Source of the DNA: Nemopilema nomurai
Taxonomy: Eukaryota; Cnidaria; Scyphozoa; Rhizostomeae; Rhizostomatidae
Reading direction: 5' to 3'
DNA length: 64,000 nt
Assembly: GCA_003864495.1 (NCBI GenBank)
Contig: ML133472.1
Coordinates: 496,001-560,000, forward strand
The notes beneath the pieces were generated by a model that was given only the letters and a program-made list of their open reading frames with translations, did no database searches and was not told where the DNA came from. Made by a program: the position numbers and the translations under genes. Below are positions 19,005-45,200 of the stretch, piece by piece (position 1 is the first letter of the stretch; each line of letters starts with the position of its first letter).

Positions 19005-21222
19005 TTTGCCTAAAATCAAGAATCACATAGTTACATAATTACCTAATTATTAGACGAAAATAGGTTTAATGGGCAGACTCATTGCTAAAAAAGAACCCTC
19101 AATGACTTCTTTAAACTACAAGCTAAGTTTATAGGCAAAAATAATTGAATGATTTTCAGTTAATCATGCTTTGTACAAACAAAACCAAACTTGTTACATG
19201 TTCTTCATACCCAAATTGGTTACCAAATCATTTTTGCCTGAAACTCACATCATTTGTGTTTTCCTCGCAACTTCATTCTTATATCAAAATTAAAGACTTC
19301 TACAAGATAATCTACAAGAATTTAAATCTAACATAGATCAGATTCTGTCTGAAAAAGTTCTAGTTCATATCACTTCTAATCAAAAGTAATCTTGTTATGT
19401 GCAGTTATATAATTGATAACTCAATGATATATGTATTAAAAGAAACAATTAATACTAGAGTTAGGTGAGACATAATGCTAGTATGTCTAGAAGAAATCAA
19501 TTTTATGGCACAGGCTAGGCCTATTATATTATGCTCAAATCTCTTTCACACAGATAGCGATTTCCACATCATTATTTGCTTTACAATCATTATTTGCTTT
19601 ACAATCAATAAGAACTCACTTTAAAAGAACACTGAGGCTAGATTTGCGAGAAGTTGAAGAATAATTCTAGAATTTACTCAGCTTCAGGTGTAAAATTAAT
19701 GCAAAACAGTTTAGATTTTGAAATTTGAATTAAAGGCTCTGTTAACACTGTATTTTTGAATAGTTCTCGGCAAAACTATCTTCTTAACAAAAAATTAAAA
19801 GGGTGTATCTTTTATTTCCGATAGGCACCTTGTAAGTGCTATAAATTATACATGTTTTAGACTTTCCTTTAATTCGCAAAAAGATAGAGAACATACATAT
19901 AAATAAGTCTATGAATCTCCGTGAGGAAATTTCATAGTTGCCCAACTTGAACGTAGGCCGAACTAAAACAGTTTTAAAGGTCAAACAAACTACTAGTTTG
20001 TACCTACTGCATTAATCTTCAACCCCTCGTAGCTACGTATAAACTATTTCATACCTTATTTGATCAGCAATGTATGTCCTTTCTATCCTGTGCAAATAGA
20101 AACCTTCATACCCCTTCTTCTTTCCTTAGTGTTGTGTATTTCGTCCACCGGAATGGTCGTCTTCCAAGTTCCCATGTGATTCTTGCGGCTGCCCTGTTAT
20201 AAGTGCCTCGTTGCGGAGAACCTCTTGGCCTCGTTGCAGCATTGATTTCTCCATCAGTGTTTTGAATGTCTTCTTTTGCAGTTTGATGGTGCACGACTTG
20301 AGGCCAGAATATAAACAAACGAGGATTTCACTCCCAAACGAAATGTTCCTTTAGATAGGTGTAGGACTACTTTAATCATTTTCATCCGTTTCGTGAAATG
20401 AGGCCTGCATCTTGAGTTTTTTTCTAATATGGGTCTTGTATGTTGACCCAGCGTTTAATATACCCCAGCTCCCACTTCATGCAAAACTCTGGATATTTCT
20501 ATCCTTTGCGCTACTAATATATATTTTAATCAGCGTGTTTCAACTTCGATCACTATTTCGAAAAATCAATTCAGCGACGTGGCATGTTTAATTTCTGAAA
20601 CATCATAGGCAGAGATATTTAGTTACTTAAAAGCAACTTTATTATAGTTGCCTAAAAAAGATTGATAATTGAATCAGACTTTTTTGTGGTAAATGCACCT
20701 AAAATCACTACTGTGGAATACAAAAGAAAAAGTGCAGGCGCGTATTAAAATATTAGCGATAAATTATGCAATAAGAAATATCTGGTTAATGTTCTCGAAT
20801 CTCGAATGCCCATTCGTGGATTGAAAATGATAAACCAAATTGGCTTTTATTAAAGCATCTTCCTCTAAAAAAGAACAAGCCGTAGCTTTTGTTATCTGAA
20901 ATCGCTTCTTCAAAGCTATATAGCTGCTTTATACGCGAATGTCTTCGCCTGCTTCAAAATATTGCACCAACTTGCAAACATAGCAGAAAGGACAAACCCC
21001 AATGTTTCAAATGTACGGTTGGATGAGTGGAAAATGAAATAAAACTGCACAAACGAAAAGGATCTTAATGCAGTTGATGAACTATTAAAATGAATGGTAA
21101 AAATTCTCAGCTATAAATTACAACAGGGGAATAATTTATCTATAATTAAAGATTTGTACATATTTATATTCCTGTATCATATAACAATTGTTACTTTTTA
21201 TAAGCAGCCTACTCGGCGGAAA
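19005..21222. other. Intergenic stretch between EXOSC4 and expansin A
   Basis: AT-rich, with a short direct duplication near 19565-19605 (CATTATTTGCTTTACAAT twice). A 70-codon minus-strand open frame at 20106-20318 has no recognised homology. The EXOSC4 promoter and the 3' UTR of expansin gene A should lie here, but no element can be named from sequence. Confidence 0.4.
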
Positions 21223-24200
21223 TTAGTCACTATCTCTCAAAGGTCGTTTACTGTCTTTTTGCTTCTTCTTCTTTCCAATAAACCTCTTTGTATAAACATC
21301 TTCATCGTTGTCATCTGACATCACGTTGCCTTCTAATGACACGGACCTACTTCTGGCCGAGCTGGCATTGCAAATGACATTTTTAGGCCAGTCGCAAACG
21401 CCCTCTCTTGTGTTGTATCGAAGGCCATTCGGGCACTCTTTGTCAAGGGCCTTTCCTTGGAAGCACAAAATGAATCGTTCACAATTAGATTCGTTTTGAT
21501 AGGAGCCATCTTGTCTCTGATGGCAGAAGGATTCGTTCGAAACTTGTTGCATCGACAAGTTAGTCTTAGCTGAGCCACCATTTGCGTGTGATTGATTCTT
21601 CGAAACTTCTTCCGACAATTTGAGTGGATCTTTGCTTGCAACTTCCAACCCTGAGACTGTAGCGGAAAATGTTTTTAGTAAACAATGACATTTTTCAGCA
21701 GCCAATCATTATGAAAAATAGACAGATTCTTACTATGGGTTGATTTGCAGTTATTTCTCAGTATAGAGAGATTGCGTTGGGAGAGACGTTGCTCAAAAAC
21801 CGACTTCCTCGATTGTTCTTTACTTCAATGTTATCCGGTGTCTATCTTATAAGCTAAAATAACACGGTCCTTAATGCTTTGTGCACACAAAACATACCAG
21901 CCAGATGGCAATTCTTTGAGCCTTATTCACTGTCATATACATACAAAATACCTTTATAAGGAGGCCAACCAAGTGGCAGCCAAGCATGCTGACAACCAAT
22001 TTAAAGGAACGCAGATGATAAACATTGCAAATGAAAAGGAGGTTAACACACCTGGCTGTACAGACTTGCCTCGTTGTACCAAGGGTCCCCTGCTAGACGA
22101 GTGAGTCATCTCAGCCTCGTAATGGCAAGCAGTTGCAGGACCTGCACCAGCACGCGTTGCTGAAAAGAAATCCGCCATTATCGATTTTGAGTGGAAAATG
22201 AAAGAGACCTGAGTCTCTGTCGAGCTTCTTAGGTCTACAGGTTAAAAAGTGCGTTTTATTACTTGCTAGCTTCGTGGGAATCTCTCTCGCCATTTTGATT
22301 TGTACCTGAGCTTTTTTATATACATATTTACATATATTTCATTCAAAAATTTACAAGACAAATTTACATAATACGCTACCTAATAAATACTCTACAAACA
22401 CTATAAGGAAGATTATACCACGTGGAGCAATAGACCATGACAACCCCGTGGCAAATTAACATAGAAAAGTAAAAACTACATAAAAATACACAGAATACCA
22501 CCTGAATCTCAATAGGCACATCTCTTTTCAAGTTTGTTAACAAAAAGTAGTGTTATGGACATTCATCTGAAAATTACCTGCGTGAAATGTCGTGAATTGG
22601 TGCTTCAACGGGACATCTTCACCAAACACAAACTTGTCTAAAGAAAAGCCAATAGTCTCCCCGGCAATGCTTCTAACACGAAACTGCGCTGGAGCAGTGG
22701 GCTGGAGATCTGCGAAGGTGAAGTAGTTGTCTGTTTCTCGTTGCAAGCAAATCCATCGGCCATCTTGAAAGCATTCCAGTGATATCACAGGGAGCCTAGA
22801 GAAAATGGCATTGTGAGAAGTGTACAATGCATTTGAATACTCAATCAAAGTATGCTGTGCAGGCAACAGTTTTCCTACAGAAATGGCTTTCTATTTAGAG
22901 AAAAGGTCTGCACCAGCCTTGCACCTAAGCGACAAAAGGTGCCTGGAAAGCTAAAAGAATATTCAATGCTAGCAAAACATCTTTTTTACTGCAAAAAGAA
23001 TCAATGAATTTCTACGTCATAACTGTTGAAACTATATACATTGCTTCAACTTTTGCCTTGGCCAATTGCACATCTAAGGCCATGCACTTACAGTGAGTTT
23101 CTGATTTGAATTTTAGTCCCGTTGTTTTCAGCTTTTTCGATGACCATTTTCAATTCCTCTTTGGAACTCACTTGATCCATACAGTCAACAGCCACAATAT
23201 TTGCTTTCATTGCCTGACTCCCTTCTGTGTACAAACTGATTTCACCTACAACAATTGACAGTTAGTAAAAGCTGCAAGCATTAACCTGAATTTCAAATCA
23301 TTGTAGTAACTATACTCGTTTTCCAATTAATCTAGCATATTAACCTATTTAATTATATGCAGGGAATGACAAAATCATATTTATCATTGAAAATTCATCT
23401 TTATTGAAACTGTTCTATTTAAACTCCTTTTTTCAAAGGCTTTTTCGCCAATACACTGTGGCATTGTTTAGCAGCATTCTTCACAGACTATCATCGTTTT
23501 TCGTTTGATATATAACATTCCATATATCTTCATTTTAAGTCCCGCCTGTGCAACTTTCACGAAACACGATGCAACTAGCAGCCCGTACCAAATGTTACTC
23601 TATTAAAAAGCTAGCATCCGCTTCTCAAATTGGTAGCGGTGTCAAATGGCCTTCTAAAATGTGTCAGGATAAAGAACCTTTACATAGTATTTGCCGTGGA
23701 AATAATTTTATCAACGGTATTTCAAAATTTATTAATTCAACTTCACGTTGCTGTGAAAGCAGTAATTGAATAACTAATGGTTTTGAATTTCGCTCCGCAG
23801 ATATATTGAAACTAACCTTTTTGGCAATCATTACACTCATCAATGACCGCTACGTAGATGTCATCTGGGTCCTCTCTTGCCACCAGGTCTATTAGAGACA
23901 CTTTCCAGCATGTTCCACACGCGAGTGATCCAAGAAAGTCAGCTTTCGAAACGGCAGCAAGGGTCCATTTCTTTGTACCAATCAAAGGGGGTATTGGGTC
24001 CAAAGAGCAAGCACTTGTTCCAATTGGATAGGCTCCATAATGTGACACCTACAGTGTAGTGAACAGAGCATTGCACTTTCAATTTCAAAAGACACCTTCA
24101 TGCAGAATTAGTACCAAAGCTTAAGATATTTCTCTAACGGATACGTAGGCAATGTTCCGGATTTCCATTCGACGAACGGGAGAAAATTTCATTTGGCTCA

Positions 24201-25196
24201 TGGAACACTCAATCATTTATAAACTCAAATATTTCTCTCACTTACAAACATCTGTAAGAATATGCCAATTCAGATAAAAGTAAATTTCAAGCAAAATTAT
24301 AACATCTAAGCGGCTAGATGCCTGAAAGAACAAAACTAAAGCCAGAGTTAAGATCACCATGGACTAATTAATTTAAGTCAGCATATTCTAATGGTAGTAT
24401 AATCTAGGGTAACCATGGACTTGTTTCGTACAAAACAAAATGAACATAGGATAACAGTTCGGGCAACACATAGGCTATGTTTTATATTCACTGATATTGG
24501 TAAAAGGCTTAAGTTAGGAAAGAATGGGGTTAGCATTGGCTTTTATTAACATAGTGTAAAGCTTGAAAAACTCAAGATTTACATTCTTGGGGATTTTGCA
24601 CATTCGCGACAAAGTTCTATCAAAATGTGCCATGTTTCTATTGCGGTTTCCACTGCAGATAAAAAATGATACAATGATACTGTACCTTAGCAAGTGAAGA
24701 CTTAGTGAAATGGCTGTACAAAATTTCGACATCTTTCTGGCTCGCTCTTTTCACTGTTTGTTGTTGCATGAAAGCACGTGCCTGCAAAAAGCGCGAAAAA
24801 GCTCTACTTGGGAGCTGATTGTTCAAATTTTGAAATATACATTTTAATGCAACACTAGCATAAAATTCAACTATACCATATTACTGACGTGCTCAAAGTT
24901 GTCAGATGATGAGCTTTAAAAATGAAAACAGTTGTGATTCTACCCACGGGACTAGCAGATTGGAATCAGATAATTTGTATCTTATCTTATCTAGAGTGGT
25001 AAATCAAAACATGAAACTATTTATAACAATACATCAAAGCATGTGCTAGATTAGCAGAACAATTTTTACACCATAGAGAAATGACACATACCTTTGCTTC
25101 CTTCATGGACAGGATTAAATTTACCATCAGAAGAATCCATATGTTGGTGATAAAAAGTCCATGTCTTTTGAAACTATACTCTACTGCTGGTATCAT
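21223..25196 (-). CDS. Expansin-like protein A with one CBM14 domain
   Basis: Seven exons: 25196-25092, 24781-24686, 24048-23817, 23245-23092, 22795-22578, 22159-22052, 21656-21223. Phases are 0,0,1,2,1,1 and the total is 1347 nt (448 aa). Domains: hydrophobic signal segment at about residues 14-30; short linker; expansin D1 double-psi barrel (about 68-165) with YPIGTSACSLDPIP, which matches the LDPIP segment of Bacillus EXLX1, a Cys-rich CGTCWK, and VIDEC, which supplies the conserved Asp; D2/CBM63 (about 185-270) with IQIRN, DGRWICLQ and SIAGETIGF; linker; one peritrophin-A/CBM14 domain (six Cys, about 349-401); acidic then Lys-rich tail. Expansins loosen polysaccharide networks without hydrolysis. 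D2 has NNGTKIQIRN where B and C have NPWYLKLQ, so the planar aromatic surface is reduced. It is the most diverged of the three genes. Confidence 0.9.
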
Positions 25197-27109
25197 ATCT
25201 ACTTCTCTTTTATCTTTTCATATCTAGAAAATAGATCAACCAGATCATTGAAATTTTATTTTAAACGCAATATTATCGACAATATTGTCGGTGATAGTTC
25301 TCGCTGTTAGACGAAATGTTTCTAGTTTGATCTGTTTTGAGCATGTTCATTGATCATGATTTAACAAGATTAAACATGATTTGTGTTGATCAAGCAAATG
25401 AGCTCCTAACAGAACGTGTGATTTGTTGAAAACAACAGAAAGAGCAGGTGGGAAGAACTCGTTCAACAAATTCGATCTATATGATATTCAAAAGGCCATC
25501 ATTTCGAGGACTATAAGACACAAGTCTTTGAGACGTGATATTGTAGAGATGTTTAATTTTATAATAGGTTACATTGCTTAGGTTTGGATTTCAAGCAAAA
25601 TGGCGGTAACTGTGGAACAACAAATGCATGCAAAAATAAAAGTTCTAGTGTGACCCAAATGTTTTGAAGCATTTATTAGCTGATATCTCTGTCTCTGGAC
25701 ATGTAAAGTAAAAGTTCTTCAAAAACCTGTGCTTCCCTTTCACTGGCGCATTTTAAGAGACCCCTGTGAAAACAGGAGTTATCAAGATAGTACAAGTCTC
25801 TCTCTGAATACAAGAACTGAGATTTTCCTTAATTCAATCTGCCCAGTTTCTCGTCATGCAAAAAGCACGATAATTGATATTATGAAACGGTATGTTTTTG
25901 CGTCCAGCAACTGATCTTTGCTCCAAAACCACAAACGCAGTACCTGGGTTGATCTCGGAAGATCATGGACAGGTTTTTTATACCCAGTCCTGTGAAAATC
26001 TGTTGCTGCTTCATGACCTTTGCAGGGATGTTTTTATAATAGAAGAAATAGAAAGATGCAAAAATTATCAACGAATACATTTCTAGGTGTGTTGCAAGGA
26101 AGCAGAAAGTTTGTTGTGATTGGTTTAAGCTGCTCAAGAATCATAATCAATAAAGAGAATAATCATTTTGTTCTAAATTTATGCATTTAAAATTGGAAGT
26201 TGAATACATTATAAAGCCATTTACTTTGTTATAATAAATATGCCATCGATTTCCACCCAACGATATACTCTGAGCAATATACTAAGGCATATTTATTTCT
26301 ATTTCAACGGGTGTTGTTTGTCATACAGTTGAACCCGAGGCGTGGGTGCGTACATTCGGAGCTGGGAGTTGACCCTTAGTGTAAACAATTGGCTACGGAG
26401 GCGCAAAGTCTATAGGCCTTTACAAGTATCTAATGGCTGATTGTTGAGCAAAAGCGTGTGAAGATTGATGTCAGAGAGTATTAGAGTCAACCGCTTGCTT
26501 ACCTTTCGTTTGAACGATTGCTGACCAGATGCATTTTGCAGTGCAGTGCTAAACAACTAGCAATCCGGTCAGTTTCCCGTACATTTATAGGCTAAATTAT
26601 ATCAGCAGTGCAGGTTCTGGAAAGTTCTCACAATAGGAAGAATATTCAAAGCAGTTTCCAATAAGCTACAGTCCTATTTATATGTTCTTAGAATACCGTA
26701 GAGCTCATTTGACTGCCTGAAATTCAACAATTATTGTTTGGTCCAACGCCTTTCACATCCCTTCTTTACTTCAAAACACATCAAAACCTGACAGTGGTCG
26801 CCTGGCCACAATGAGCTTTTTAAAATCACTTAGAAATGTTATTCCAAGGGGGGATAATATAAGACTATAGCAAAACTGTTTGTACATCATCGCAAGCTAT
26901 TTGGTAAAGTTTCAAAATATGATGACTAAACAAGAATCATTTCTGTTGAATGCCAACTCCAAAATCAATCAAAATATCATCCAGAAGCACGTAACAATTT
27001 TGAGTAATGCGATTGATTTTATGTTCGGCTGCTAGGCTTGCTATACGGATGATTAGCTGATGGCCTTTGATCAGCTAGAAGCGATTCGACTGATCCCTCT
27101 ACATAGCAA
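25197..27109. other. Spacer between expansin genes A and B
   Basis: About 1.9 kb, AT-rich. It should hold the promoter of gene A and the 3' end of gene B. No exon, repeat array or mobile element was recognised. Confidence 0.4.
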
Positions 27110-30100
27110 TCAACAATGAACATTCGTCGGCCAATCGCATTCCTCCTGCAATGAGTTAAACAGCAGTCCTTCTGAGCAACTCTTTCGTACGGTTATCCCC
27201 CTTACGCACTTGAAGTAGTCTCTACAATTACTTTCCGACCTGTAAAGCCCGTCCAGTTTACCCAGGCAAAAGCCGTCAATGCTGGAAGTCCTGTTCGTGT
27301 TTGCAGGCTCATTGCAGTTTACATAGCTGGACTTGCGGCACTTGGTAAGGTACCGGTCATAGAGATAGCCCTCCGGACATCGGTACGTCTGCATAGTCGT
27401 TCCGGTGCACATAATGAACTTGCTGCAATCTGCCGGGTAATGATGTCTCTGTACGTCGTTGAAGATCTCAGGGCATCGACTTGAGGGGCGTATTGTCTCG
27501 CCAACTTCGTTGTTCTCCACCAAAACTAGCTGCAATCGATAACCAATTTTTACAAGCAACCCTGGCTTGAGATATTCATACTTCATTTGAAGGCTGCACC
27601 TTCGCTTCCAAGGGGGAAGGAGCGTGGTTCAGCCTTAAAATTAGTGCAACTTTTAATGATTAAAAGCTAACATGACTATTACTCCAGTGATGCCAGACAA
27701 AGTAATTTAGAGGCACTCTGACCATTTCGACCAATATTGTGGACATAATTCTCAGACGCAAAAACTTTCACGTTTAACCACCTTATTGATCGTAACATTA
27801 TTTCCTCCTTAAAAACCCCCCTTACCAAGACAAACTTGTTACAGCTGAAGGCAGAATCTCGAGCAGAATTTAGTTGTTAATAAACAATAAGCTCAAAGAA
27901 TATATAACATCATGACACAAGAAGATAGCTTTAATTGTCTTCCGTTCCTTGCTTTGTCTTTCTTCTTAAAATTCATGTTTTCTGTAAGGTGACTACACGA
28001 CCGTGAACTCAGATTTGCCAGTTGTTGTTGTAGCCTGCTTGTAGCTTGTGTTGAGATAAGAACGTCATACAATTCTGAGCAGATAAGCATAGTGCAGGAT
28101 TGTATCAACAACAGCAGTAGCTGGGGGATGTCCTCTAGGTGACTAACGTAAATACTGCAGCTGGTAAGATGAAAGAAAAGGATAACTTGCTCTTTTATGG
28201 AAACTATTTTGTAGGGTAGCGATTATGTTATAGGGAAGCAAAGGGAGCATTCTTACCCCTTCTATGTCAGCCTGCTTGAGGCCCGAAGTAGTAGATGCCT
28301 TTGATGTCCCTTTGCTCTCTTGGTTACATCCGGCTTTGGCAGGGTAATCACAATTCTTGATTTCGTCATTCCAATGCAGGTCTTTAGGGCACTTCTTCCT
28401 GTATGTTTTTGAGCTAGCGCATTGAATAAAGTATTGACAGTCAGTTGGGTCACTGTAAAAGCCAGACTCTCTTGTTTTGCAGAAGTCTTCAATATCTTGC
28501 GATTCGCCTGATGTGCCAGGTTTTGTTCCGCCACTTGGCTTTCCTGTTGATTGTGTTCCAATTGTCCCTGTTTTTTGAGTGGTACTTGTTTCTGGTCTAG
28601 GCGTTGTCCCTACCTGTGTGGTTGGTGCTTTTGTTGAGGGTTTTTCGGTTGCAGGAACTAAAACACAGGATTCCAGAAATTTAAGAATTTAAATCAGCAA
28701 CAACTACCGTTTTGTTGTAGATTCAAAGCTTGTAACAGTCCATGGCTATTGCTAATCCAACTTGGCGCTCATGTCTCTTACTCCTTGTGCAATACCAAGA
28801 CAAGAACGGACGTTAAAAGGGCTTAAATCTATGATGCTCAATTGGATCAACACAATACGAACACTTCATTAAACAAAGCTCTTGTAGGACAGAACCAAAA
28901 TATTATGGTTTTAAAAATCGATACCACTTAAAACCAATCCTGTTAATCAGCTAAAAAAGTAGCTAAGATTAGCATTAAACAACTATGATGCTTGAAACTG
29001 GATTAAGAGGGGGGAATCATTAAAGAAAATCACCTTCATCACCACTGCCTGAGGATCCTTGGCTCGCTACGTCATCACTATTTCCGTCCCTCACCAGTCC
29101 CCCTTGACCGTGGCAGGGAAGGCTCGGCGCACCACCTTCATTCACTTTGAAAGCAATCATAGTAAGATCAACGTCAGCCTAAAATCTGAACTGCCTGATG
29201 CATGGACGATCTTGCCTCAGAGTTAATCACAGTTAAAGAAACGTGACTGGACTTACTTACCTAAACTTACTTACCTTACCTTATCATACTGGATTATCAC
29301 TAATTAAGGTTCGTGAAAATGCACAAAGTTACGACATTTTCCAAATTCTTTCGCATGAAGATTGCAATAAGGCTACATTGCTGTCAATAAACTTTAACGG
29401 AAGTACCCAACCCTGAAGTGACAATAGCTATAAAATTCCTCGTGCTAGAAAGCTTGTGGATAATGCTTTTCCACTATAATCCATACATGGGTAGGAGTAA
29501 AAGTAGTCGAAAATGTAAGACACTTTGAAATTTAAATGAAATTTTAATAATCCTTTTCACCTTCTTTCAACTTCTTGTACTGAAATCCAGAATTCTGATC
29601 CTTGTCATTTACCAGTTTTGGAATATCCCCTCCAACAGTTTCTCCAGAAATACTGGTAATCCGTGTCCTCAAAGGAAAGTTGATCTTCCCAACTCCACTC
29701 CACACAAAATGGTTATCGCTCGCCCTCTTTGCACAATGCCACTTGCCATCCCTGAAGAACTCCACCGCCGCTGTTGGTTGCCTGGTAGACATGTTGTGTC
29801 ATTATGTCATCATGTCATTATGTCATACTAATAAATCACAGATGATCACATCACAGAGATAGACATGATCACGACAGCTTTGGGTCTAGTTCATCGTAGC
29901 TTTAGTACTTCAACAACCTTCAGCATAGTTTTGAGATTTTTGGAAATAAAAAGGACGCACAAGTACAGTAAACGCAAAACGTGAACCATCTTTATACTAC
30001 AACTCCCATTTTAAAAGAATAGAGACACAAGGGGAAACATCATACAATTCACAGTTCGAATGTTTCTTCAAAGTACAATCTGTACTCATGAATACTTCAG

Positions 30101-31872
30101 TAGCCTTTCACCTTTCACCTTTCACCTTTTAGCGTCGGTTGTAGAACATTTATGTTATGTAGAATAGAACATAACGGATAGTACTCATTTCATAAGGGTA
30201 GCTAGCCTACCAATTCACAACTTGCAAAGGCCGCACGAATAGCTTGGTGAAATGTTCTAGTTCTGAGCTTCCATTCTTCAATCCGTAATGTTTTAAAATT
30301 TTTGTATCAAATTGCACATAACCCAGCATTCATGTAAATAGATGTAACACGGAAAACACTGAGATTAAAAGGTTTCGAGCGGTTATAATTTCCAAGTCAC
30401 GTGCTATACTTACTTGGCATTCGTGATCTGCAACTTGAGGTACCAGGGGTTGCTGCCACTGAAACGATACTGGATGTTCCCCTGTGGCGCCGACACATCT
30501 GGACAGTCGATTGCACTGAACTCGATCTCCCACTTGCCGTCTCCAGGGATGTAGAAGTCCAAGTCGGCTGCAATGAAGCGCCAGTAATTCTTAATCAAGG
30601 TACACTAGGTGTTTGATAAATTATTACTGGAATTAAGTTTAAAGTCAAGAGAACAAGCAATGAGAAAACGAACACAAAAAAGCATGCATCATTCAAAGTG
30701 CACATTATCATACCTTCACCACAGGCTCCGCACAAGTCGTTTACCACTGCGTAGTAAGTGCCCTCCAAGGGGGTGTTTCCCTTAGCAACAGGCTTACCAG
30801 ATGCCTCGATTTTCAAGCACATCCCACAGCCAAGAGACTTTTTAAAAGTCGGTGCCCCCGCTGCCACTTTGATCCAACCCTTCTGCTTGTAGACCATCGG
30901 GAGTGGGTCAAGGGAGCATGCGCCTGTGCCAACAGGGTATTCCCCGTAATAGCTTGCCTGAAAGAGGGATTGCTTGCACCTGAAGCACAGTTGGAGTTTC
31001 AAAAGTGATTCCTACTGCAAATTGATTCCCTACAAAGGTTTCTTCTTCTCTGCTTCTCTAGATGAAACATCATTCAAAGAAGCTCTAGAAATTGGTGGTT
31101 CAAAGCTCAAGACCTCATTTATTCTTACTCCTTCAATATAGTAATAGGCTCTAAAAGATGACTTTTACGCATTCATAAATTGATCCCAATTACATAAGCA
31201 TCTCCTTTTTGCAATCGCAGGCAGCATATCTGGCAATAAAATAGCATGCCTGTGGTTGCCAACAATAGCAGAGAACTTTGCAAGACTTTTCCCATTCATT
31301 CTTGCAAAACATCGTCGCAACAAGGATATAAGAACGAGTGGCATCTTAACGGCTGTAGGCAACTAAAGGGGCCTAATCTATTAGGCATCATCAATTCTGT
31401 TCTTACACAAGTATATTAAACATTAGATTCTGCTCTACGGAATGAATCCTCGTCGTTAAAAAATTACAGGCCCTCGCTGGAAATTTCGTTTACAGACGTA
31501 TGCTTCCACGGTCACTGCTTTTGAACGAAAACAAATCTTCAGCAGTGAAAACGATACTGCAAATTGTTAACATATATGTCAATTTCTAATGAATAACCGA
31601 CAAAAGAGTCCAATCAATGTGACATACCCATCCTTTTGAAGTCTTTTTATATCTGGAATAGATCTCCTTCACGTGGTCCTCAGTAGTCGCTCGTTTCGAA
31701 ATGTTTGGAGGCTAGAACAGAAATAATTCCAAATGAGTCAACGTGACTTAAGGCTAAGACTAAAGGATTCAACGTGAACACGAGGTGAAATAAATGAATT
31801 AAGAACAATAAATCTCACCGGTTTAGCAACAGCAACAGTGAAATAAATGAGAAGAAAAGTATTGAAGATCAT
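27110..31872 (-). CDS. Expansin-like protein B with three CBM14 domains
   Basis: Eight exons: 31872-31819, 31711-31628, 30957-30714, 30567-30414, 29781-29561, 29135-29034, 28657-28257, 27529-27110. Total 1680 nt, 559 aa. It has a classic signal peptide (MIFNTFLLIYFTVAVA); D1 barrel from residue 47 (ASYYGEYPVGTGACSLDP, GCGMCLKI, AVVNDLCGACGEG with the conserved Asp); and D2/CBM63 (about 165-255), where NPWYLKLQITN, FFRDGKWHC, DNHFVW and TSISGETVGGDIPKL track Bacillus EXLX1 closely. A Thr/Pro-rich mucin-like linker (about 287-345) then leads to three six-Cys peritrophin-A domains (about 346-398, 439-491, 507-559); the protein ends on the last Cys. It is probably secreted into a chitinous matrix. 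Whether the expansin module acts on chitin, cellulose or another glycan is unknown. Confidence 0.93.
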
Positions 31873-32873
31873 TTTGTTTCAATTTCAGCTACGGCAAAAA
31901 TAATATTGAACAAAAGGCCGGATTGCATATTGACCGCTGCGCAGGCCCTGATACCTGTGGTTTCGACTGTGTTTGTCTTGAATCACTAGAGTTGCATGCC
32001 TCCTTGCACTGATTGCTAGCAAACAAGAACCAGCGATGGATTCAAAGACACTCAACATTCTAAGGCCAGGGCACTGTTAGCCTCTTCTGAAGACAAGGTG
32101 ATGGTCATAGCTCGCTTTGATTCCGTGTTCGACGATACTAAATGTTGTGCATCTATGGAAGCTTTTATCCTTGTTCTTCACTTATCCTTACATTAGAAAG
32201 TATCTTCTTGTTTTCTATTTACTGGCACTTTAGAAGCAAGCGTAGTAGCGCAGTCTGCTTCTTAGCTAGGCCATAAATTGTGCAATCGAGAGCCGATTGT
32301 GCCATCATAATACTATTCATTACAAGGGCGCTTTGCATTGAGTCCCTAAAACGTTTTCTATTTTATTCCACTATTAGAATTTTTTTTAATATAATGAAAA
32401 CAGAAACGTCTAATTCATGCGGTTGCTTTGAATGATATACGAGCTGGTATTTTTGCAATGGATCATTATGCCTAAAATCCGAACATTTATTTGAGAAGAA
32501 AGTCAAAAAATTTATTTGCATTTAGCAGCTTTTTCACTCGACTTAAGAACAAAAATGATGAAGTAATCTTTCTCAAGTGAGAAGGTACATCTTTGAGATT
32601 TCTCAAGATGTCAAGTTCCAAATTCCACCGGATTGCACCTTTTATCCAAAAAATGTCTCTTTTTCTTTTCACATTTTCATTAGACTAATTTCACAGTGAT
32701 GCTCTTTGTCCGAATCATAAAACTCATTCCACCTTGAAGTTCATGTACACAGGAACATTTGTAAAATAAGAAGATTTTTGCTCGGAGAAACTTTGCTCAA
32801 ATGTGCTATTTATACATGTCCATAACTGCATGGCAAATAAAAATATGTGATAATAGCAAGTCCGCTTCAGAAA
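31873..32873. other. Spacer between expansin genes B and C
   Basis: About 1 kb holding the presumed promoter of B and the 3' end of C. No exon was recognised. Confidence 0.4.
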
Positions 32874-35800
32874 TCAAGAAAACCTGGCCTTGAATTTGCT
32901 TTTGATCTTGCAGCCAGCATCAGCAGCAAAGTCGCAGTTCTTGATTCCATCGTTCCAGTGCAAATTTCTTGGACACTTCTTCCTGTACGTCTTCGAGCCA
33001 GCGCACTGAATGAAGTACTGGCAGTCAGTTGGGTCACTGTAAAAGCCAGACTCTCTTGTCTTGCAGAAATCTTTGACATTTTGAGAGCCTCCAGTTGTTC
33101 CAGGTTTTGTTCCTATCTCTTTCTCTGGTGTAGTGCTCAATTCTGGCCTAGACGTTGTCCTCACCTCTGTCGTTGGTGTCCTTGTTGATGGGCCTAGAAA
33201 TTTCAGTTTGGGTATTTATATAATAAACTGAGAACCTCCCTGATACTTTATCAACTATGTATTCTTTGGATGTATCTCCTGGTTTTAAGCACCATATCAA
33301 AATGGTTATAAGTTATCGAGGAAAATAGGTTCTCACTGTCACCATGACTCGAGGGGGAATGACTTACTGTTTGCTGGATGAAAATTGGATAAATTCATTT
33401 GATGTGCTTTAGGGGCTTCGATAAAACATTGCCAAATGAAGATCTATTTAAAATGGCATCTTGTAACAAAATTAGACCTATGCAAACAAGCAATATAAAA
33501 CAATTCTACGTAACGAAAATCGCCAATACTTTTTACCTTTGCCCGTTTCGCGTTGTCCCTGGCTGTTTACATCATCAATACCTCCGCTTCTTACCAAATG
33601 CCCTTGGCCATGGCAAGGAAGCTTTGGTACAACACCACTGTGCGCTTGAAAGGGACAAGTCTCAAGTCATATAGGCATTCAAAAGTACAAAATTACATGG
33701 CTCTCAATTGTTCTATTTTATGTCGCTTTTCGTCTTTTACAATAGCCCCTTGACTCTCTACAACCCAATAGCTCCCTTCAAATGCACCCATCTTACTTTT
33801 GAGGGAGGGGGAAGGGATTTCCTACCTTGAAAGAAGCAAAATTTTGCTGCTTTATGACGATAAAATGGATAAAGGTACCTACATGCAAGTTAGTGTAATA
33901 GAAAAATTACTCACAGTGTCCACGTTCAACTACTCTTAGACACAGACACCTGTCCAACAGCATCCAGAAATTATAACTCAGTATGCGTTCGAAGAAAGAT
34001 TTGATAAAAGCTCACCCAACAACCAATTTACCATTGACTACTTGGGTTTTATGTTTCACCAAAGGCCTAAACGATTTTGGGCATGAATTTGATGAAATCA
34101 CCAGCAACTGGGCGCTCAATGTACTAGCTATTGATTGTACAATACTTTACTGTACTAGCGTTCTCTGTACATCCTTATAACCTATAATTAATTTATTTTC
34201 TTTTCTATAGCTTGGGCATTTGCCTATCTTTCTTAAGAGAGTCTAAATAGACAAACCCATTTCAGACAGGCAAAGCTCATAGTGTCGATGGCATTAAGTG
34301 GTTATTAGACAAAAACAGAAACACTCTTCCAAACTTGGAGAGTCCACGCTCTTTTGCTCAAAGAGTACTAATAGTAATATATCAAGAGAATTGTCAAAAT
34401 AAACAAATATGCTATCCATATATCTTCTTTCAACCTCTTGTACTGAAATCCAGAATTCTGATCCTTGTCATTAACAAGTTTTGGAATATCCCCTCCAACA
34501 GTTTCTCCAGAAACACTGGTAATCCGTGTCCTCAAAGGAAAGTTGATCTTCCCAACTCCACTCCACACAAAATGGTTATCGCTCGCCCTCTTTGCACAAT
34601 GCCACTTGCCATCCCTGAAGAACTCCACCGCCGCTGTTGGTTGCCTTGCAATGAATATCATTATTACAGAACAGAAACAAAATGTAATAACCTGCATTCA
34701 CAGCACGAAATGTAGCAAAACAATTAAATGAATGACGTAATTAGAGACAAATACATGTTGAATGTTTGTTTTTATGTTGAAAAATACAACTAAGAACAAT
34801 GTAGCAAGGAAAGTAAGAGTTATAGTCATCAAAGTCACGTGCTATACTTACTTGGCATTCGTGATCTGCAACTTGAGGTACCAGGGGTTGCTACCACTGA
34901 AACGATACTGGATGTTCCCCTGTGGCGCCGACACATCTGGACAGTCGATTGCACTGAACTCGATCTCCCACTTGCCGTCTCCAGGGATGTAGAAGTCCAA
35001 GTCAGCTGCAGCAATGAAGACATATGTCCTACTCAGGCGCGCAACTACGGGGGGGGGTCCTGGGGGTCCAGACCCCTGCCCTTTTTCACAACAGAGGAAA
35101 AGTGCCCTTTTTCTTGGAAAATTGCTAAAATCTCCGTTTGGAAATGATCTGATTTAACTTTTTTGTTATCAAGCTAAGAGGGATGGCCATTACTGACACA
35201 TTCCGGATATGTATTTCAAGACAATAGCTTCTCCTGATAAATGGTCGACATGGCATTCATTCAATTTAAATTTCAAGTTATTATTTCATTTCCGTTATAC
35301 AATGAGAGTCGATCACAACTGCCTTTTCCGTTTCTTATCAAATTATTTTGCGACCAAGTAGTACGTAACTGAATAAAGAGATTCTGTCTTGGCCTATGCT
35401 TGATTTGTATCATACAAAACGACGTTCCACCTGTATTCTTGAAGTTTATTTAATAGTAAGCCATGCCTAGAAAAGAAAGAGTTTTGAAGCACAAAAAGAT
35501 GGCACTCAAGCGAGCTGCGGAAGACAAGGAACAGAGCAAACTTTCTTTCTTCAAAACACCCCGCAAAGATCCAGAAGAGTCGAGAAATGCAACATCCGTT
35601 TCTGTGGCAGAGTCTTTTGGCGAAAGTAGTGGTATAGACCAAGAAGCACAAAGGAAAGAAATAAATGAAAATGAAAAGAACTGCAGCGAACATACCAGCG
35701 AGGACAATGACAAAAGCATCAGCAGCAGCGAAGACAGCCAATCGACTGAAGTCGGGGAACGTGTTGTTGAAGGGGGCAGTTTTAATCAGCAGCAAGAAAT

Positions 35801-38800
35801 AAAGCGGGCTTATGATTTAGCAGATGTTGTACTTGGTAAAAGGCCATTGACTGACCTAACGGATGAAGACAAGTACAACTATCTGAAATATCATTTTAAG
35901 CCAAGTGCTACTGAAAAACTCTTTTCATTGAAGATAAGTAAGAATGGGAAAGAAAACGCTATTTTATCAACATTCTTGGTTAGAGGAGAGGTCATGGCAT
36001 GTTTACAGTCCGGAATTGAACGGAGGATTGTGCAAACTGTGTGTCTTGTTTGACAAACCTCACAAGAAGGCCCAAAGAGGGGCATTTGTTGCTTCGGCAT
36101 TCCAAAAGCTACAGAGATCAGAACTGATCAAAGCTCATGCAGAGACCGACTACCACAAAGCTGCAGTTGCCCAAGGTTCCGATTTCATGAGGACATTCAT
36201 GCATCCAGAAAACAGTGTTGAGGCTGACAAAATTTCAGAGCAGTACTATCAGCGAAACAAGCACATACTAGAAGCAATAGTGGATGCAGTCTTGCTTTGT
36301 GCCAAACAAGGGCTCTCACTGAGAGGGCACAGGGATACAAAAGTGAATGACATGGACGAAAGTACAGAAAACAGAGGAAACTTTCTTGCGATAATGGAGC
36401 TGATTGCAAAATATGACCCCATTGTAAAAGAACATTTGAAAAACGGTCAGCGAAATGCAAAGATGTTATCATGGAAGACCCAAAATGACATTATTGCCAA
36501 TGCAGCTTTCGTTATAAAGAACCAGATAAAGGATATGATATCAAGCGAAAAATTTTATGCGGTAATTGGAGATGAGGTCACAGAAAGATTTGCAAATAAA
36601 GAAGTTTTACTCGTTTGTCTCCGTTTTCTCAACTCAATTAATGGTGAGCCGAAAGTTGAGGAAACGTTTTTCCAGTCCATGCACATGAAAGGACGCACTT
36701 CTGGAAAAAACCTGGGACAGAATATCATAGAAATATTAAGAAGCAACGAACTTGTTATGGCTGATTGCAGAGGACAAGCTTATGATGGAGCTGCGGCAAT
36801 GTCTAGTGATAGGTGCGGTGCACAAGCTGAAGTCCGGAAAGAGGCCCCAAATGCAGCATATACGCACTGTCGGAGTCATGTCATTAATCTTGCAATTGTT
36901 GCTGCATGTAAGAATCGAAGCATCAGTAACATGATGGATGTCATTTCATCAGTTTACCTGTTCTATGAATTCTCTCCAAAAAGAAAGTGGTACTTTGAAA
37001 AATTCTTAAATTATTACGGCGAAGAAATGGGCCTCACAGAAGTACAGAGGAAGAATATAGTCAGTCTGGCACGCACTCGTTCGAACGTCATCGTGCATTC
37101 GAGTCATATTATCTGCTCTATCGTGCCAATGTTGCAGTTATGGAGTCTATCTTCAAGCCCCAACTATACAGCGAGTTCTATGACGCATTACGCACCGATT
37201 TTGAAGAAGAATGGTCCTGGGACTCCGAAACCAAATCAAAGGCACAAGGCTCGCAGACAGAATTCAGGTGGAACTGTTCAACCTTCTACCATCTGTAATG
37301 CTAAGCAAAGAATTCGATGTTCTTGAGGCCGTTCAAATTTTAAAGAGCAAGTTCTTTTTGGATATGGAAGATGATGGATTACATTCTAAAAGTGAGCTCC
37401 TAAGATGGAAAAGGCACTGGGAAAAAGAGATGGCGGTCAGAAAAGAGAAGTCCACTGAGATTGAAGAAAAAAGACGACAGAAAGAACAAAGGAAAGCGCT
37501 ACAATGTATGCATGACAAGAGAAAGAGAAATCCAGAAAAATCACGGTTGAGATGTGACGGTGAACAGGCTTATGTTGTTGCCTAGCCACCAGACAGTCTA
37601 CTAGACGCTCTCCGTGTTGCTGACCGGGACATTTTCCCTTCAATACGAAGATTGCTTGTGATAGGCTGCATTTCACCCATAGGTTCCTGCGAAGCAGAGA
37701 GAGCAGCTTCTGGAGTCAGACGATTGAAGACAGCCTATCGCAGTACAATGACGTCACAACGTGAAAGTGACTTGAATCTAATACAAATGCGGTCCGACTT
37801 GCTGCCAACATCTGATGCTGTTGTAGACGCATTTATAAAGCAGCAACCCAGGCGAATGTTTTCTTCATCTATCCTTTTTGAGTGACACTGATTTGAGTAT
37901 GGAAAATAATCAGATAAATAGAGTTACGTAGCTTTCATTTCATTTTGGTTGCTTTTTTGTCAGTTCGAATACTTTACCTGGAAACAAAAATCTTAAAGTG
38001 ATGATGGAGTAAAGAATTAAGTCAAGCAATCATTTACAATTTATCTGATTTTTTTTTAAATGAAGTAACTTCTGTAGTTCAGTATATCCGCATTGAATTG
38101 CAATGAGGCTTTTCATTCGAATTATGCTAGTAGAAATGTTTAGTATCTTTCGACGTTAAAAGGCAGTGAAAAATTTCAGGAATATTTTTGTAACATTTTT
38201 TTCTGCTTCTTAATATAAAAGTAGAAGTCAGGTAATAAAGGAGTAAAATTTCCATTGTGCCCTTTTTGTGTCTTGGACCCCTGCCCTCTGAAATTCCTGG
38301 TTGCGCGCCTGCTACTTTCAATTTGATTTCATAATGTTGTAAACAAAAATAAAAATTCTTAGAAAAATGTAGAGATAAAATTGTCACTGGAGGATAGAAG
38401 AATTTGGAGGTTAAAGAACTAAGAAGGCTATTTATCCCTTTCTCGCTTCAGCTTTTGATTTTTAAATACAAGACTGTTTGCAAAAGCAAAAAGTCAATAA
38501 TCACCTTCACCACAGGCTCCGCACAAGTCGTTTACCACTGCGTAGTAGGTGCCCTCCAAGGGGGTGTTTCCCTTAGCAACAGGCTTACCAGATGCCTCGA
38601 TTTTCAAGCACATCCCACAGCCAAGAGACTTTTTAAAAGTCGGTGCCCCCGCTGCCACTTTGATCCAACCCTTCTGCTTGTAGACCGTCGGGAGTGGGTC
38701 AAGGGAGCATGCGCCAGTGCCAACAGGATATTCCCCATAATAGCTTGCCTGAAAGAAACAGGTTTTGTAACGTATTTAAAAGAGAATGCTTTATTTGAAA

Positions 38801-40314
38801 TATTTCATCTCTGCCAAAAATAAGCCTATGATAGGTAGGTTTTATATGTGATATCCCCAGCTTCTGGAAACGCAGCAAAACACGTTCCGTTTTTATCCGA
38901 TCTCCTTGGCACGCCCATCTTGTTACTTTGAACTAAATTCAAATCCTAAATGGTACTTTGGTTAAACATGAAAGACTACATTGTTCCTTGCATGTAGGCA
39001 CTACCTGAAGTCTCATATTGGGTCATAGTAGTTAATAAATCGCGTTTTCTAAAGAGAAGGAATTAAGTGTCCTTTGGTTTAATAGTAAAATGGTCATTAT
39101 CAAATTTGCATGATCCGAGTCCAAATTATTACTGCGTGGTTTACAGTTTTCCAACATCTGTCAAGTACTTTTTAAGCTTTGGCGAAAGTTCTTGAAAAAT
39201 CTCCACTTTTCGTGTGGATGCTTCAAAACTTTTTCGCAGCTGCTGTCAATGTAAAGTGGTCTTGAAGTTCAGATTAGCATCGTTCAGAAACCGTCTATTT
39301 CCGTGACGAAAAACGTTTTTGTGACATTTTATTTTTAAGTTGGTTCGAATGATCAAAATGCAGCCAGAGGATGGTTGTAACTTTTTCTAGACCCTATGAT
39401 CTCGATTTCTCAGTGTTTGTTACTTATGGCAAAAATAACAAACATAATAAATAACTAATATGAAGCAATTACATACACAGTTTGCAAGATAGTTATTAAA
39501 CAATCTTTTTGGCGTCGTGATGGAACAATGATTTCAAATGATTTACAATAAATATCATCTTCAAAACCGAATGCAGGATTTAATTTGATAACAAATTGCC
39601 TGTATCAAATTCTTTTTTTTTGATACGTTACTTTGGTTGGCCACTTAATGCTTTTCTATACTAGGTATGACCAGTTTCTCTCTGCAATATAACAATGACT
39701 TATGTTCCTTTATCCAAAATATACTCTAGTTGGGAATTGGAATGTTCTTTAGCTGAACAAGGAACTTGCCTAGCTAACGTATTCCGGAAAGAAGGCCGCT
39801 TACCCATCCTTTAGAAGTCTTCTTAAATCTGGAGAAAATTTCTTCTATGTGCAGCTGAGAGGTCGCTCTCCTCAAGACAACTGGTTGCTGGAAGTAGAAA
39901 TGAATGAATTAGGATGGCTAAGCAAGAAGAACAAAGGAAAAAAGGTACCGATGTTCTAAACTCTTGCGAGTAAAAAGCACTGTCATAAAATGACCTCTCG
40001 CGCACTTAATGGGGTAATAGAAGGAATGAGTGACCTGTCGCCTTGCTTATAAAACAACAATTCAAAATGTTTAATTTAAGCGAAACGTTTGTGTATTTGT
40101 CAAAATTTAGAATCCTCGCTCTTTATGATTGAGCTAAGACAATTTGTAATTGTAATGTCTTTTCTATTTCCTTATGCTGAATGATATTTCTCTGCTTCAC
40201 AATAGCGGAACCAGTATACAAAATATGGCTGCAAATATATAGGATGCACTAGAAACATACCGGTATAGCAAGACTGGTACCTAATGAAGCGAGTGCCAGG
40301 ATAATGAAGGCCAT
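32874..40314 (-). CDS. Expansin-like protein C with one CBM14 domain
   Basis: Seven exons: 40314-40261, 39887-39804, 38748-38505, 35005-34852, 34644-34435, 33637-33537, 33193-32874. Total 1167 nt, 388 aa. Signal peptide MAFIILALASLGTSLA; D1 and D2 nearly identical to gene B; Thr/Pro linker; one peritrophin-A domain (about 326-378); and a basic tail (CKIKSKFKARFS) in place of B's two further CBM14 domains. Intron 3 carries a 3.3-kb hAT insertion. At exon 5 the donor position used by B reads AT instead of GT. An upstream AG|GTTGAAAG (34435/34434) changes the phase from 1 to 2, and the exon 6 acceptor is shifted by one base, so the frame is restored. With these sites the CDS is open throughout, arguing for a working gene; this splice choice is inference. 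Confidence 0.87.
35034..38311 (+). mobile_element. hAT-type DNA transposon in intron 3 of expansin C
   Basis: A 3278-bp element with matching ends: CAGGCGCGCAAC at 35034 and its reverse complement ending at 38311. Subterminal segments also correspond (GGTCCAGACCCCTGCCCTTTTT against a mirrored TTGGACCCCTGCCCTCTG). It is flanked on both sides by CTACT (35029-35033 and 38312-38316), a likely 5-bp target-site duplication; most hAT elements make 8 bp. The body encodes a broken transposase on the plus strand, opposite to the host gene. A perfect 12-bp terminus with a degraded coding region suggests moderate age. Confidence 0.9.
35463..37884 (+). pseudogene. Broken hAT transposase (TTF zinc finger, DUF4371 type)
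   Basis: The first open segment (35463 to about 35940) has a basic, Ser/Glu-rich N-terminus. The next (about 35944-37070) carries a TTF-type zinc finger (WHVYSPELNGGLCKLC and HAETDYH) and a DUF4371/hAT catalytic-core region (VIGDEVTERFANKE, GQAYDGAAAM, THCRSHVINLA). The C-terminal dimerisation segment (CEAERAASGVRRLKTAYRS, about 37692-37750) is recognisable. The reading frame shifts near 35940, between about 37063 and 37083, and near 37245, and there is an in-frame TAG at 37583-37585. Homologous sequence continues in the new frame after each break, so this is a decayed gene and not spliced exons. Transposition by this copy is unlikely. Confidence 0.88.
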
Positions 40315-42290: not shown

Positions 42291-45200
42291 ATGTCAATAA
42301 ACAGCCCTGTCAACATCTCAGAGGACTTGATGCCTCCAGATGCTGATGGACGGTGAACATGAATATCTTCTTGTTACAAATTCATTAAATATTTAGCAAT
42401 CATTTATTGAATATTAAACATACATTTTATTAGAGTCAAAGTTTCTTGGTTAGAAACCTACACATTCAATCAAAATTATGTAGATATTATGACCATGTTT
42501 TTAATTTTACAATAAATGCTGAAAGAATAATTTTTTTATGCTGATTGCTTAAAAGGGATTGCTAATAATTACAGGAGTTTTGTGAATATTCTGGCTTTAG
42601 TAGGCCAAAATGTCTTTTTAAAAATTAGATTCCAATTTTAAAGGAAATGTTTGTTTTATAAACAGATGTATTTGCATTTATTTTGCAATTCAAAATTTTA
42701 TGTTTTTATATATGCAATGCAAACTTAGTACTATTATCTATTTTTGTTCCAAGACATAAATCATAGTAAAAAATCAAATAAGAGAAGTTGTTCAAGAATC
42801 TACACACGAAGGACACTAAAAGTGTTTCCACTCATAGCCATGTTACTGTAATATTTTTTTTTAAACTATATATATAATAACTTCCATTACGTTTAACAGA
42901 TGACACCATCATTTGCTCATATTTTTTCCAACAAGATGATGTAGTATTTCATTTTTTCTTTCAGCACATTACCCAATCCTGAAGATTGCTCAATTACATC
43001 ATCAATAGATTCAGCTGATAGTTTCTTTTCTGATGATGATCCATTAGACGAAAGGACCCCTTTGGTTCATGGTCATAGTACCATCAGTGAAGGTGGAGAG
43101 AGGAAAGGGACAATTTTTTCATCTGTGTTCACTCTGGTCTCAACCATGATAGGTGGTGGGCTACTATCATTGCCATTTGCATTTGAACAAGGAGGATTTG
43201 TAGTATCATCACTTGTTTTGCTTTTTGTACTTGTTGCATCAACACATGGAGGCTTTTTGGTCATAAACAGTAAGAAATATTGTCATGGAAAGATAAAAAA
43301 TATTGAGGATGTTGCTAGAGTTGCATTTGGACGAAAAGGACAGGTAATTTTATCAAATATATTCTTTAGTCATCAGTTCCATAACTTAGTGCAGTGATCT
43401 AATCGTTTAGTTAAAATTCTTGCTACATGTACCAGCAACATTGTTGCAGCTGAACATATGATCATTCAAAAATGCTTAATTAAATATTGATGGAATGACA
43501 AATTATGACAAAATGCAATTTTCAAATCACAAATGTGCTTGCCAGTGACAAAGAAGAAGTAATCTGCATTACTCAGAGTAAAGACAACAAGGCATAAAAG
43601 AAAGATTCTTTGAATCTAGATTGAAAAATGTTTAAATGTTGATTGAGTTTAGTAGAAAGTTCAATATCTTTTAAAAACTATCCTTAAAGCAATATTCTGC
43701 AAAAATCATGCTATAATTTGAAGGTTCTCTCAACTTTTTCTAGATGCTGGTACAGGTGACATTGTTTTTTATGCTGTACTTGGTTTCAGCTGTATACTTC
43801 ATACTTATATCAGATCAAGTAAGTAATTTTAACAATTGTTGTTGAACCTAACAATTTAGATTCAGATTAAGGTTTCAGTCAGGCTCATATTTTCACAAGA
43901 TACAGGGTAAACATAAGGCAAACATATAAGAATCTAAACATATGTCAGAATCATAGAGTTTCTTTAATAGAAAACCATTCAATTTCATTCAAAACTTCAG
44001 AACTTTCTGATTATTTGTAAAAACTTGAAACATTCCTTTGAAAATAACTTGTCATTCAATGCTAACAGGATCCAAATTAATTTACATTTTCAGCTCTTAG
44101 CCCCTTTTCTGATTAATCTGTTCCTTACCTCCAACAGGTAGAGCCTTTGGTCCAATACATTGCTGGGAAAAGAGGATTTTGGACAGAGAGAATAGTTGTC
44201 CTGTCAATGATTTTAGTATTTGTGTTTCCAATTTCACTGTTGAAAAACCTGTCTGCTTTGCAGTATACTTCTAGTCTGAGGTATGTAATTAATGATCTAC
44301 TATCCAGAATGATAAAGTTATTACCGTGGAAAGCAAAATATGATAACACCCTTGTGACAATCAATATGATTGGAATCTAGATAAGGTTAGAAACTGTGTA
44401 TAAGCCATCCCCACACATAAGCCACACTCAAAGTTTGAGTTATTCAGAAAAAAATGTAATTTATTGTTGAAGATATTCTTAAAAATCCATGAAATTCATC
44501 TTCAACGTCAAACAGCCCAAAGGGTTTATCTGATTCCTTTTGGTTTAATATCACTCTCTCTTGTTGATAAAGTTAGTTAGCATTGTTATCTTTATATTTG
44601 CCTTCTTCCATATTTCCTTCTGATTGTTAGCATTTATTACCATTTTGTTGAAAACAAAAGGAAGTTTTAGCCATCTACAACAATAGCAAACCCATAGTTG
44701 ATCACTCCACACCCATCCATAGGCTGCACCTATGATTTTGGGTGCAAATGAGGAAAAATGTGCAGCTAACACACTGGTTTTTAAAGTAAATTTTTTGTCC
44801 ATCTTCACTGATTACCTAGGTATGTTATTTTATTGTGGCTTAGCAGAGGTTTAATGTCAAAATAGAGTCCCTAAGAACAATTACATTCTTTTTATTAATT
44901 TAGAGGGTTTTTTACTTCACTTACACAATACAGACCATGCTTGCATGTTCCAACAGAGAAATAATTTTGCACTAAGTCATCAGAGAAGTTTTTGGTCTCA
45001 AGGATTCCCAAATGTTGTCATTTCAGTGCATTCTGTGGCCTACTTTTGACTGGCTGCATTGCTTACCGCTCAGCCAAAGATAACATTGGTGGACCTGTGC
45101 ATAGACCTGATAATCCTGTGAAATGGTACCCAACTAGCCTCCGACAGTTCTTGACTTGTATTTCAATCTCAGAGCTCACCTTTTCCTGCCACTTTAACAT

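Follow-up and report, generated by a model that had tools for sequence, protein, structure and literature searches.

Expansins are described as a superfamily of plants, bacteria, fungi and amoebozoa, and in the accessible portion of the paper on their evolution the words animal, metazoa and cnidaria are absent (PMC6300095). Creep by the bacterial two-domain protein EXLX1/YoaJ (NF041144; PDB 2bh0, 3d30) requires Asp82, with Thr14, Asp71 and Tyr73 also listed as important residues, and the same source mentions microbial expansins that carry chitin-binding domains (PMC5072189). Among the matches listed in open-access PubMed Central, the animal expansin literature covers nematodes and a few insects, and no paper on cnidarian or mollusc expansins is included; the only mention there of a fusion to CBM14 is a table row for the Exaiptasia gene Aipgene19685, 'Expansin-YoaJ' (PMC6626399). 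Here we describe a tandem array of three cnidarian-type expansin genes at a single genomic locus of the scyphozoan Nemopilema nomurai, within a window of 64,000 nucleotides (contig ML133472.1, positions 496,001 to 560,000). The genes lie next to each other on the minus strand of the window, as A (40314-32874), B (31872-27110) and C (25196-21223). Our favoured reading, to which we give a probability of about 0.45, is that gene B encodes a secreted expansin with domains D1 and D2 and C-terminal CBM14 domains, which would be anchored on chitin and loosen the animal's own chitinous matrix without hydrolysis.

Several described proteins share part of this organization. Aipgene19685, compared by its table row and not by sequence, has the same three domain classes (barwin-like, pollen-allergen-like and invertebrate chitin-binding) and is predicted to be secreted (PMC6626399). 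A copepod chitin deacetylase-peritrophin chimera involving horizontal gene transfer likewise joins a bacterial-type carbohydrate-acting domain to a peritrophin region, but the domain and the phylum are different, and 'expansin' occurs 0 times in the main text of that paper (PMC13389597). Because this copepod fusion and the microbial fusions of expansins to chitin-binding domains are known, the type of fusion is not wholly new. Cerato-platanins and fungal loosenins, unlike the window proteins, have one domain, and lack both D2 and CBM14.

The spliced models of the three genes were built by hand and then checked for frame and junctions, and the signal peptides were judged by eye. All three models stay open, and GT and AG in matching phase are found at 7 of 7 junctions of gene B (562 residues) and 6 of 6 of gene C (448 residues). 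In both of these genes a signal-peptide-like hydrophobic start is followed by Lys-Arg in exon 2, D1, D2, a linker and CBM14. The start codon and signal-peptide-like segment of gene B are in exon 1 (31819..31872), and the dibasic KR site and the segment preceding D1 in exon 2 (31628..31711). D1 occupies exon 3 (30714..30957), as seen from the spliced model, the genome search and the EXLX1 profile; exon 4 (30414..30567) carries the Asp82 equivalent and the start of D2 with PWY, both flanking introns being at recurring positions, and exon 5 (29561..29781; spliced model and genome search) contains the remainder of D2, with NHFV and GDIPKL. To these the model adds a C-x-GQG linker resembling coral tails (exon 6, 29034..29144), a Thr/Pro-rich linker with the first CBM14 (exon 7, 28257..28657) and, by predicted joining in phase 0 at an AG acceptor, two more CBM14 and the stop (exon 8, 27110..27529); exon 8 could be a separate gene. 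A six-frame search of the 212.9 Mb genome with gene B gave 10 matches, all 10 at the A-B-C locus, and all seven matches to a coral-type protein fell at the same place.

Gene C is built in the same way from a start codon and signal-peptide-like segment (exon 1, 25092..25196), a dibasic KR site with the segment preceding D1 (exon 2, 24686..24781), a divergent D1 (exon 3, 23817..24048; 42% identity to B), the D1-D2 transition between two introns placed as in B (exon 4, 23092..23245), the remainder of D2 (exon 5, 22578..22795; 33% identity to B), a linker (exon 6, 22052..22159), and a final exon with linker, CBM14, charged tail and stop (exon 7, 21223..21656). It has one CBM14 as compared with three in gene B, the last two of these on the exon joined by prediction only. 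The sequence-only reading of this DNA gave each of the three genes CBM14 domains, and PF01607 does match their C-terminal exons, with 47 bits in A, 50.8 and 79.2 (two stretches) in B and 50 in C, against a Pfam cut-off of 22.1 bits.

The D1-D2 part of gene B matches the NCBIfam profile expansin_EXLX1 (NF041144) over positions 1-192 of 194 (E 1.4e-19, 70.2 bits) and Bacillus subtilis YoaJ (PDB 2bh0) with E 1e-12, in agreement with the earlier proposal that it is nearer to microbial EXLX proteins than to plant expansins. The curated cut-off of 100 bits is not reached by gene B, by the Rhopilema ortholog P0007 (61.7 bits) or by P0001 (89.7 bits; database relatives are given P numbers), and the window expansins are not assigned to the bacterial EXLX1 subfamily. 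They also differ from EXLX1/YoaJ in that Tyr73 is replaced by Cys, D1 has an extra loop, the genes contain spliceosomal introns and the protein ends in a CBM14 tail. At E <= 1 neither Pfam DPBB_1 nor Expansin_C matches B or C, and most of the 34 relatives from the second protein search have neither domain precomputed. The two-domain fold, a D1 double-psi barrel and a D2 beta-sandwich, is seen in structure models of the homologs P0001 and P0007, and is assigned to gene B by sequence. A barwin-only family was dropped as a candidate on the two domains of the modelled homologs. Of the EXLX-like motifs claimed for the array, NHFV and GDIPKL are present in A and B, but these two genes read LDPLP in place of LDPIP; gene C has LDPIP but NYFT.

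When aligned with YoaJ, genes A and B retain Asp at the positions of Asp71 and Asp82 and also the first D2 Trp, and the D2 aromatic line W125, W126, Y157 reads Trp, Tyr, Asp. Gene C retains Asp71, with Ser in place of Asp82 and the D2 Trp-Tyr pair gone, and in P0007 Asp82 is replaced by Asn and the Trp-Tyr pair is likewise gone. With 70% identity between gene C and P0007 across 192 columns, the altered residue set has been conserved. Because Asp82 and the Trp-Tyr pair have been lost, gene C is likely an expansin-shaped binder, and for the same reason a non-canonical, non-loosening use is likely already present in the array.

Gene A departs from its neighbours after D2. Exon 1 (40261..40314; open, with a GT donor) holds the start codon and a signal-peptide-like segment, exon 2 (39804..39887; AG/GT junctions, phase 0) a dibasic RR site and the segment preceding D1, exon 3 (38505..38748; 98% identity to B exon 3) D1, and exon 4 (34852..35005; model, genome search and alignment) the end of D1 with the Asp82 equivalent and the start of D2 with PWY. 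Exon 5 (34424..34644), with the remainder of D2, is followed by ATATATGG and not by a GT donor, whereas gene B has GTGAAA at the same place. Three in-phase GT dinucleotides within the exon would each truncate D2, and the read-through stretch offers a single GT, which is out of phase. Read past the exon, the frame (open from 34368 to 34697) gives a short hydrophobic tail and then a stop (34368..34423), a shortened ending that omits CBM14. A C-x-GQG linker exon (exon 6, 33537..33644) and an exon with a Thr-rich linker and CBM14 (exon 7, 32874..33193) lie further along the model, but because the donor after D2 is not GT their joining to D2 is not established. The claim that three genes each join an expansin to CBM14 therefore holds, in the spliced models, for B and C; A we infer to be either decaying or a shortened copy without CBM14. 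A transposon-type frame with DUF4371 (PF14291, E 3.9e-15; 35938..37326, plus strand) lies within intron 3 of gene A; neighbouring frames from 35460 to 37885 may be part of it, and those at 35460-36053 and 37205-37585 gave no family in the domain scan.

The relationship of A to B varies sharply along the genes. Exons 3-5, encoding D1-D2, are 98% identical (608 of 619 bases), whereas exons 1, 2, 6 and 7 are 63-76% identical and the introns are mostly unalignable; the near-identical blocks of A (38756-38503, 35019-34819 and 34646-34424) pair with 30965-30712, 30578-30382 and 29783-29561 of B. There are 8 synonymous differences in 206 D1-D2 codons compared with 20 in 60 aligned codons of exon 7. 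Near-identity of the D1-D2 exons amid diverged outer exons and introns argues for conversion-like homogenisation of the expansin part, and the pattern looks like gene conversion restricted to these exons. An assembly duplicate was considered and dropped, as A and B differ in their introns and outer exons.

Three protein searches gave 3, 34 and 126 matches, 124 proteins in all, the third having scored the 7993 candidates with most words in common and contributing the best 120 of its 126. By name or tree, 12 full or nearly full proteins are cnidarian (Montipora, Acropora, three from Oculina, Porites, Rhopilema and five more), and three fragments (P0111, P0118, P0121) look cnidarian. CBM14 is present in four of the 12, in P0001, P0007 and P0013 by scan (eight of the 12 were scanned) and in P0053 by precomputed domain; the carriers outside the window are Rhopilema, Porites and two transcript-sized contigs. 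Expansin and CBM14 form a single frame in those contigs (P0001, P0053) and occur together in an annotated Rhopilema isoform. Several coral proteins stop after a C-x-GQG tail similar to exon 6 of A and B, and P0005 ends where CBM14 would be expected to start. Because Porites (Anthozoa) and Rhopilema (Scyphozoa) both carry the fusion, it likely predates the split between these two groups.

Other named relatives come from molluscs, algae (one green, one red, several brown), a rotifer, an oomycete and a fungus, and CBM14 was not seen in these by scan of two molluscs and by precomputed domains for the rest. The mollusc expansin-YoaJ-like proteins (Physella, Biomphalaria, Mytilus and others) are of the same Cys-type, with 32-40% identity to gene B; they differ in having no CBM14 (P0020 and P0022 by scan, none precomputed for the others). 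Relatives P0072, P0073, P0085 and P0023 combine the same expansin with CAP, WSC or CBM1 (precomputed) or with a C-terminal hydrophobic segment (by eye). On its predicted domain partners, the expansin unit is one that has been fused several times among these relatives. In bacterial and archaeal genomes a narrow alignment gave 50 pattern matches with 0 relatives and a wider one 57 matches with 2 relatives, and plasmid records gave 6 weak Curtobacterium matches at 26.7% identity.

The D1-D2 region of gene B is interrupted before model position 5 (phase 0), in codon 83 (phase 1) and in codon 131 (phase 2), and gene C has introns at the same positions 83 and 131. We looked for corresponding breaks in 22 partial database proteins, 17 of them with an ENA source, using protein letters only, with scatter in the profile ends. 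Nine fragments start exon-like at 83 and four pieces end there; twelve break at 131, three of which resume past an insertion. At least one of the two breaks occurs in 16 of the 22 fragments (three of the 16 cnidarian-like), neither occurs in six (P0032, P0062, P0065, P0088, P0089, P0092), and P0097 breaks at 83 and is continuous through 131; some fragments break elsewhere. Residues are compatible with a phase-1 AG acceptor in 9 of 9 cases and with a phase-2 GT donor in 11 of 12. The best matches of the fragments are mussel-like, whelk-like, Physella-like, cnidarian-like and green-alga-like (P0034, P0095, P0103, P0104), with a weak and unclear scallop match for P0094 and P0113; the recurring positions are seen in mollusc-like and green-alga-like ones. 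By our own rough estimate, two shared introns would arise by chance with a probability of about 1e-5 if placed at random in 600 bases, or about 1e-3 if one site in ten is usable. Should the breaks be introns, they were likely in the gene before its presence in cnidarians, molluscs and algae, which argues against separate bacterial captures and favours either descent with many losses or eukaryote-to-eukaryote transfer.

In our favoured reading of gene B, CBM14, a chitin-binding family, would hold the protein on chitin, D2 would lie on the sugar ribbon via its Trp-Tyr pair, and Asp71 and Asp82 would enable D1 to pull chains out of register, giving a surface able to grow, detach or open, for example a polyp base or a chitinous cyst; gene C would act as a chitin-held binder or scaffold. 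The genome contains two chitin-synthase-like exons with EDRWL and QRRRW, both above the Pfam cut-off (loci L016 and L017, about 0.9 Mb apart on contig C70), and the six-frame search, which covers exons only, gave no cellulose synthase match (control matches in 3 of 14 genomes). Scyphozoans are reported to have chitin in the tissue of the medusa and surrounding the nutrient reserves of polyps or strobilae (PMC10216261), fungal expansins are reported to bind chitin (PMC4284994), and expression of Aipgene19685 is up in the pedal disc (log2 2.12; PMC6626399).

A number of observations weigh against this reading. In A and B, Cys, Tyr and Asp replace Tyr73, Thr14 and Tyr157 of YoaJ, and the last two CBM14 of gene B depend on a predicted junction. 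CBM14 is not seen in eight of the 12 cnidarian proteins (five scanned; P0012, P0042 and P0059 by precomputed domains only), of which the ends may be missing. The chitin-synthase profile also matches four of 14 control genomes, E. coli included, so that specificity rests on the EDRWL and QRRRW motifs. Known expansins bind cellulose (PMC5072189), and chitin loosening by a two-domain expansin is not shown in the literature consulted. Pedal-disc expression would fit an adhesive as well.

One alternative, which we regard as unlikely but worth attention, is that these are structural or adhesive matrix proteins in which the expansin unit only binds polysaccharide and CBM14 tethers it, with no loosening. 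Gene C and its Rhopilema ortholog keep CBM14 and (from the model of P0007) the fold while lacking Asp82 and the Trp-Tyr pair, and the Exaiptasia gene is up in the attachment disc, in which the superfamily of invertebrate chitin-binding proteins is enriched (PMC6626399); against this, A, B and eight other aligned cnidarian rows, though not C and Rhopilema, retain an Asp at the Asp82 position, a residue for which a pure binder would have no use. Quite unlikely, in our estimation, is action on foreign cellulose, in the walls of algal symbionts or food, with CBM14 merely anchoring the protein to mucus or the lining of the gut. Relatives are frequent among molluscs, which include plant or algal feeders, several of the cnidarian matches are from reef corals, and the cellulose binding of canonical expansins (PMC5072189) fits such a role. 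However, among the proteins scanned or with precomputed domains CBM14 is confined to cnidarian members, expression is up in the pedal disc in the one Exaiptasia data set, albeit of a symbiotic strain (PMC6626399), and chitin-synthase-like exons were found in the genome and cellulose-synthase matches were not. The signal-peptide-like starts and the tandemly duplicated, diversified locus would also suit immune or barrier lectins, with the expansin unit on microbial walls and CBM14 on chitin, and bacterial expansins bind other walls; with one small locus in the genome we consider this very improbable.

The remaining alternative concerns origin, namely that cnidarians acquired D1-D2 directly from bacteria and then fused it to CBM14. 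The greater closeness of D1-D2 to EXLX than to plant expansins favours this, and for its placement we assembled 109 rows (124 proteins less 22 fragments or near-copies, plus three from the window and four bacterial). In a quick tree of 106 rows, omitting three short ones, the 15 cnidarian rows form one clade (Shimodaira-Hasegawa-like approximate likelihood ratio test, SH-aLRT, 100), and the four named bacterial rows are in a separate group (99) alongside fungal, oomycete and other rows. A careful tree of 66 rows omits 43 of the 109 as long, redundant or short, including window A, window C and Rhopilema; it supports cnidarians at 100/100 (10 rows), molluscs at 100/99 (19) and bacteria at 99/97 (10), with seven bacterial and three mollusc rows labelled via the first tree or similarity and the groups not fixed beforehand. 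The backbone between groups is weak in this tree. Neither tree shows a bacterial sister to cnidarian D1-D2, and a clade of cnidarians and molluscs was not recovered. The approximately unbiased (AU) test rejects neither the joining of cnidarians with molluscs (p 0.206) nor that with bacteria (p 0.141). With the bacterial rows grouped apart and intron-like breaks recurring at 83 and 131, direct capture appears improbable, and horizontal acquisition from bacteria, as the sequence-only reading had put it, is not upheld. We infer instead an old intron-bearing eukaryotic lineage.

A broader scenario, possible but rather doubtful, would combine these elements. Animals would have kept, or got from another eukaryote, an intron-bearing expansin lineage common to molluscs and green algae, to which early cnidarians added chitin anchors, making a plant-type wall loosener act as a creep tool on their own chitin; the sister copy, gene C, would have lost the loosening and cellulose-gripping residues and been kept as a chitin-held scaffold. 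Its mollusc branch bears on an unsequenced 21-kDa snail protein that extended cellulose-free mushroom wall without hydrolysis (PMC4284994). Since seven mollusc family members would be about 23-25 kDa once the signal peptide is removed, they are candidates for that protein, and no more.

The surroundings of the array include an exon with an RNase_PH domain, exosome-subunit-like, at 18594-19022, which adjoins the expansin genes, and an amino acid transporter (Aa_trans) exon at 42945-43397, upstream of gene A on the opposite strand. Two repeat arrays are also present, one of about 20 copies of a 25-base repeat (5997-6572) and one of about 97 copies of a 21-base repeat (49214-51259), the latter open in several frames on both strands and with strong GC and AT skew.

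The B/C pair provides a natural experiment, in which one scaffold occurs with and without Asp82 and the binding aromatics, and the sequences allow testing both of whether an expansin acts on chitin and of which snail protein extended cellulose-free mushroom walls. If the cnidarian expansin is fixed to chitin, animals would be loosening their own matrix without hydrolysis and so controlling growth in a way known from plant walls.

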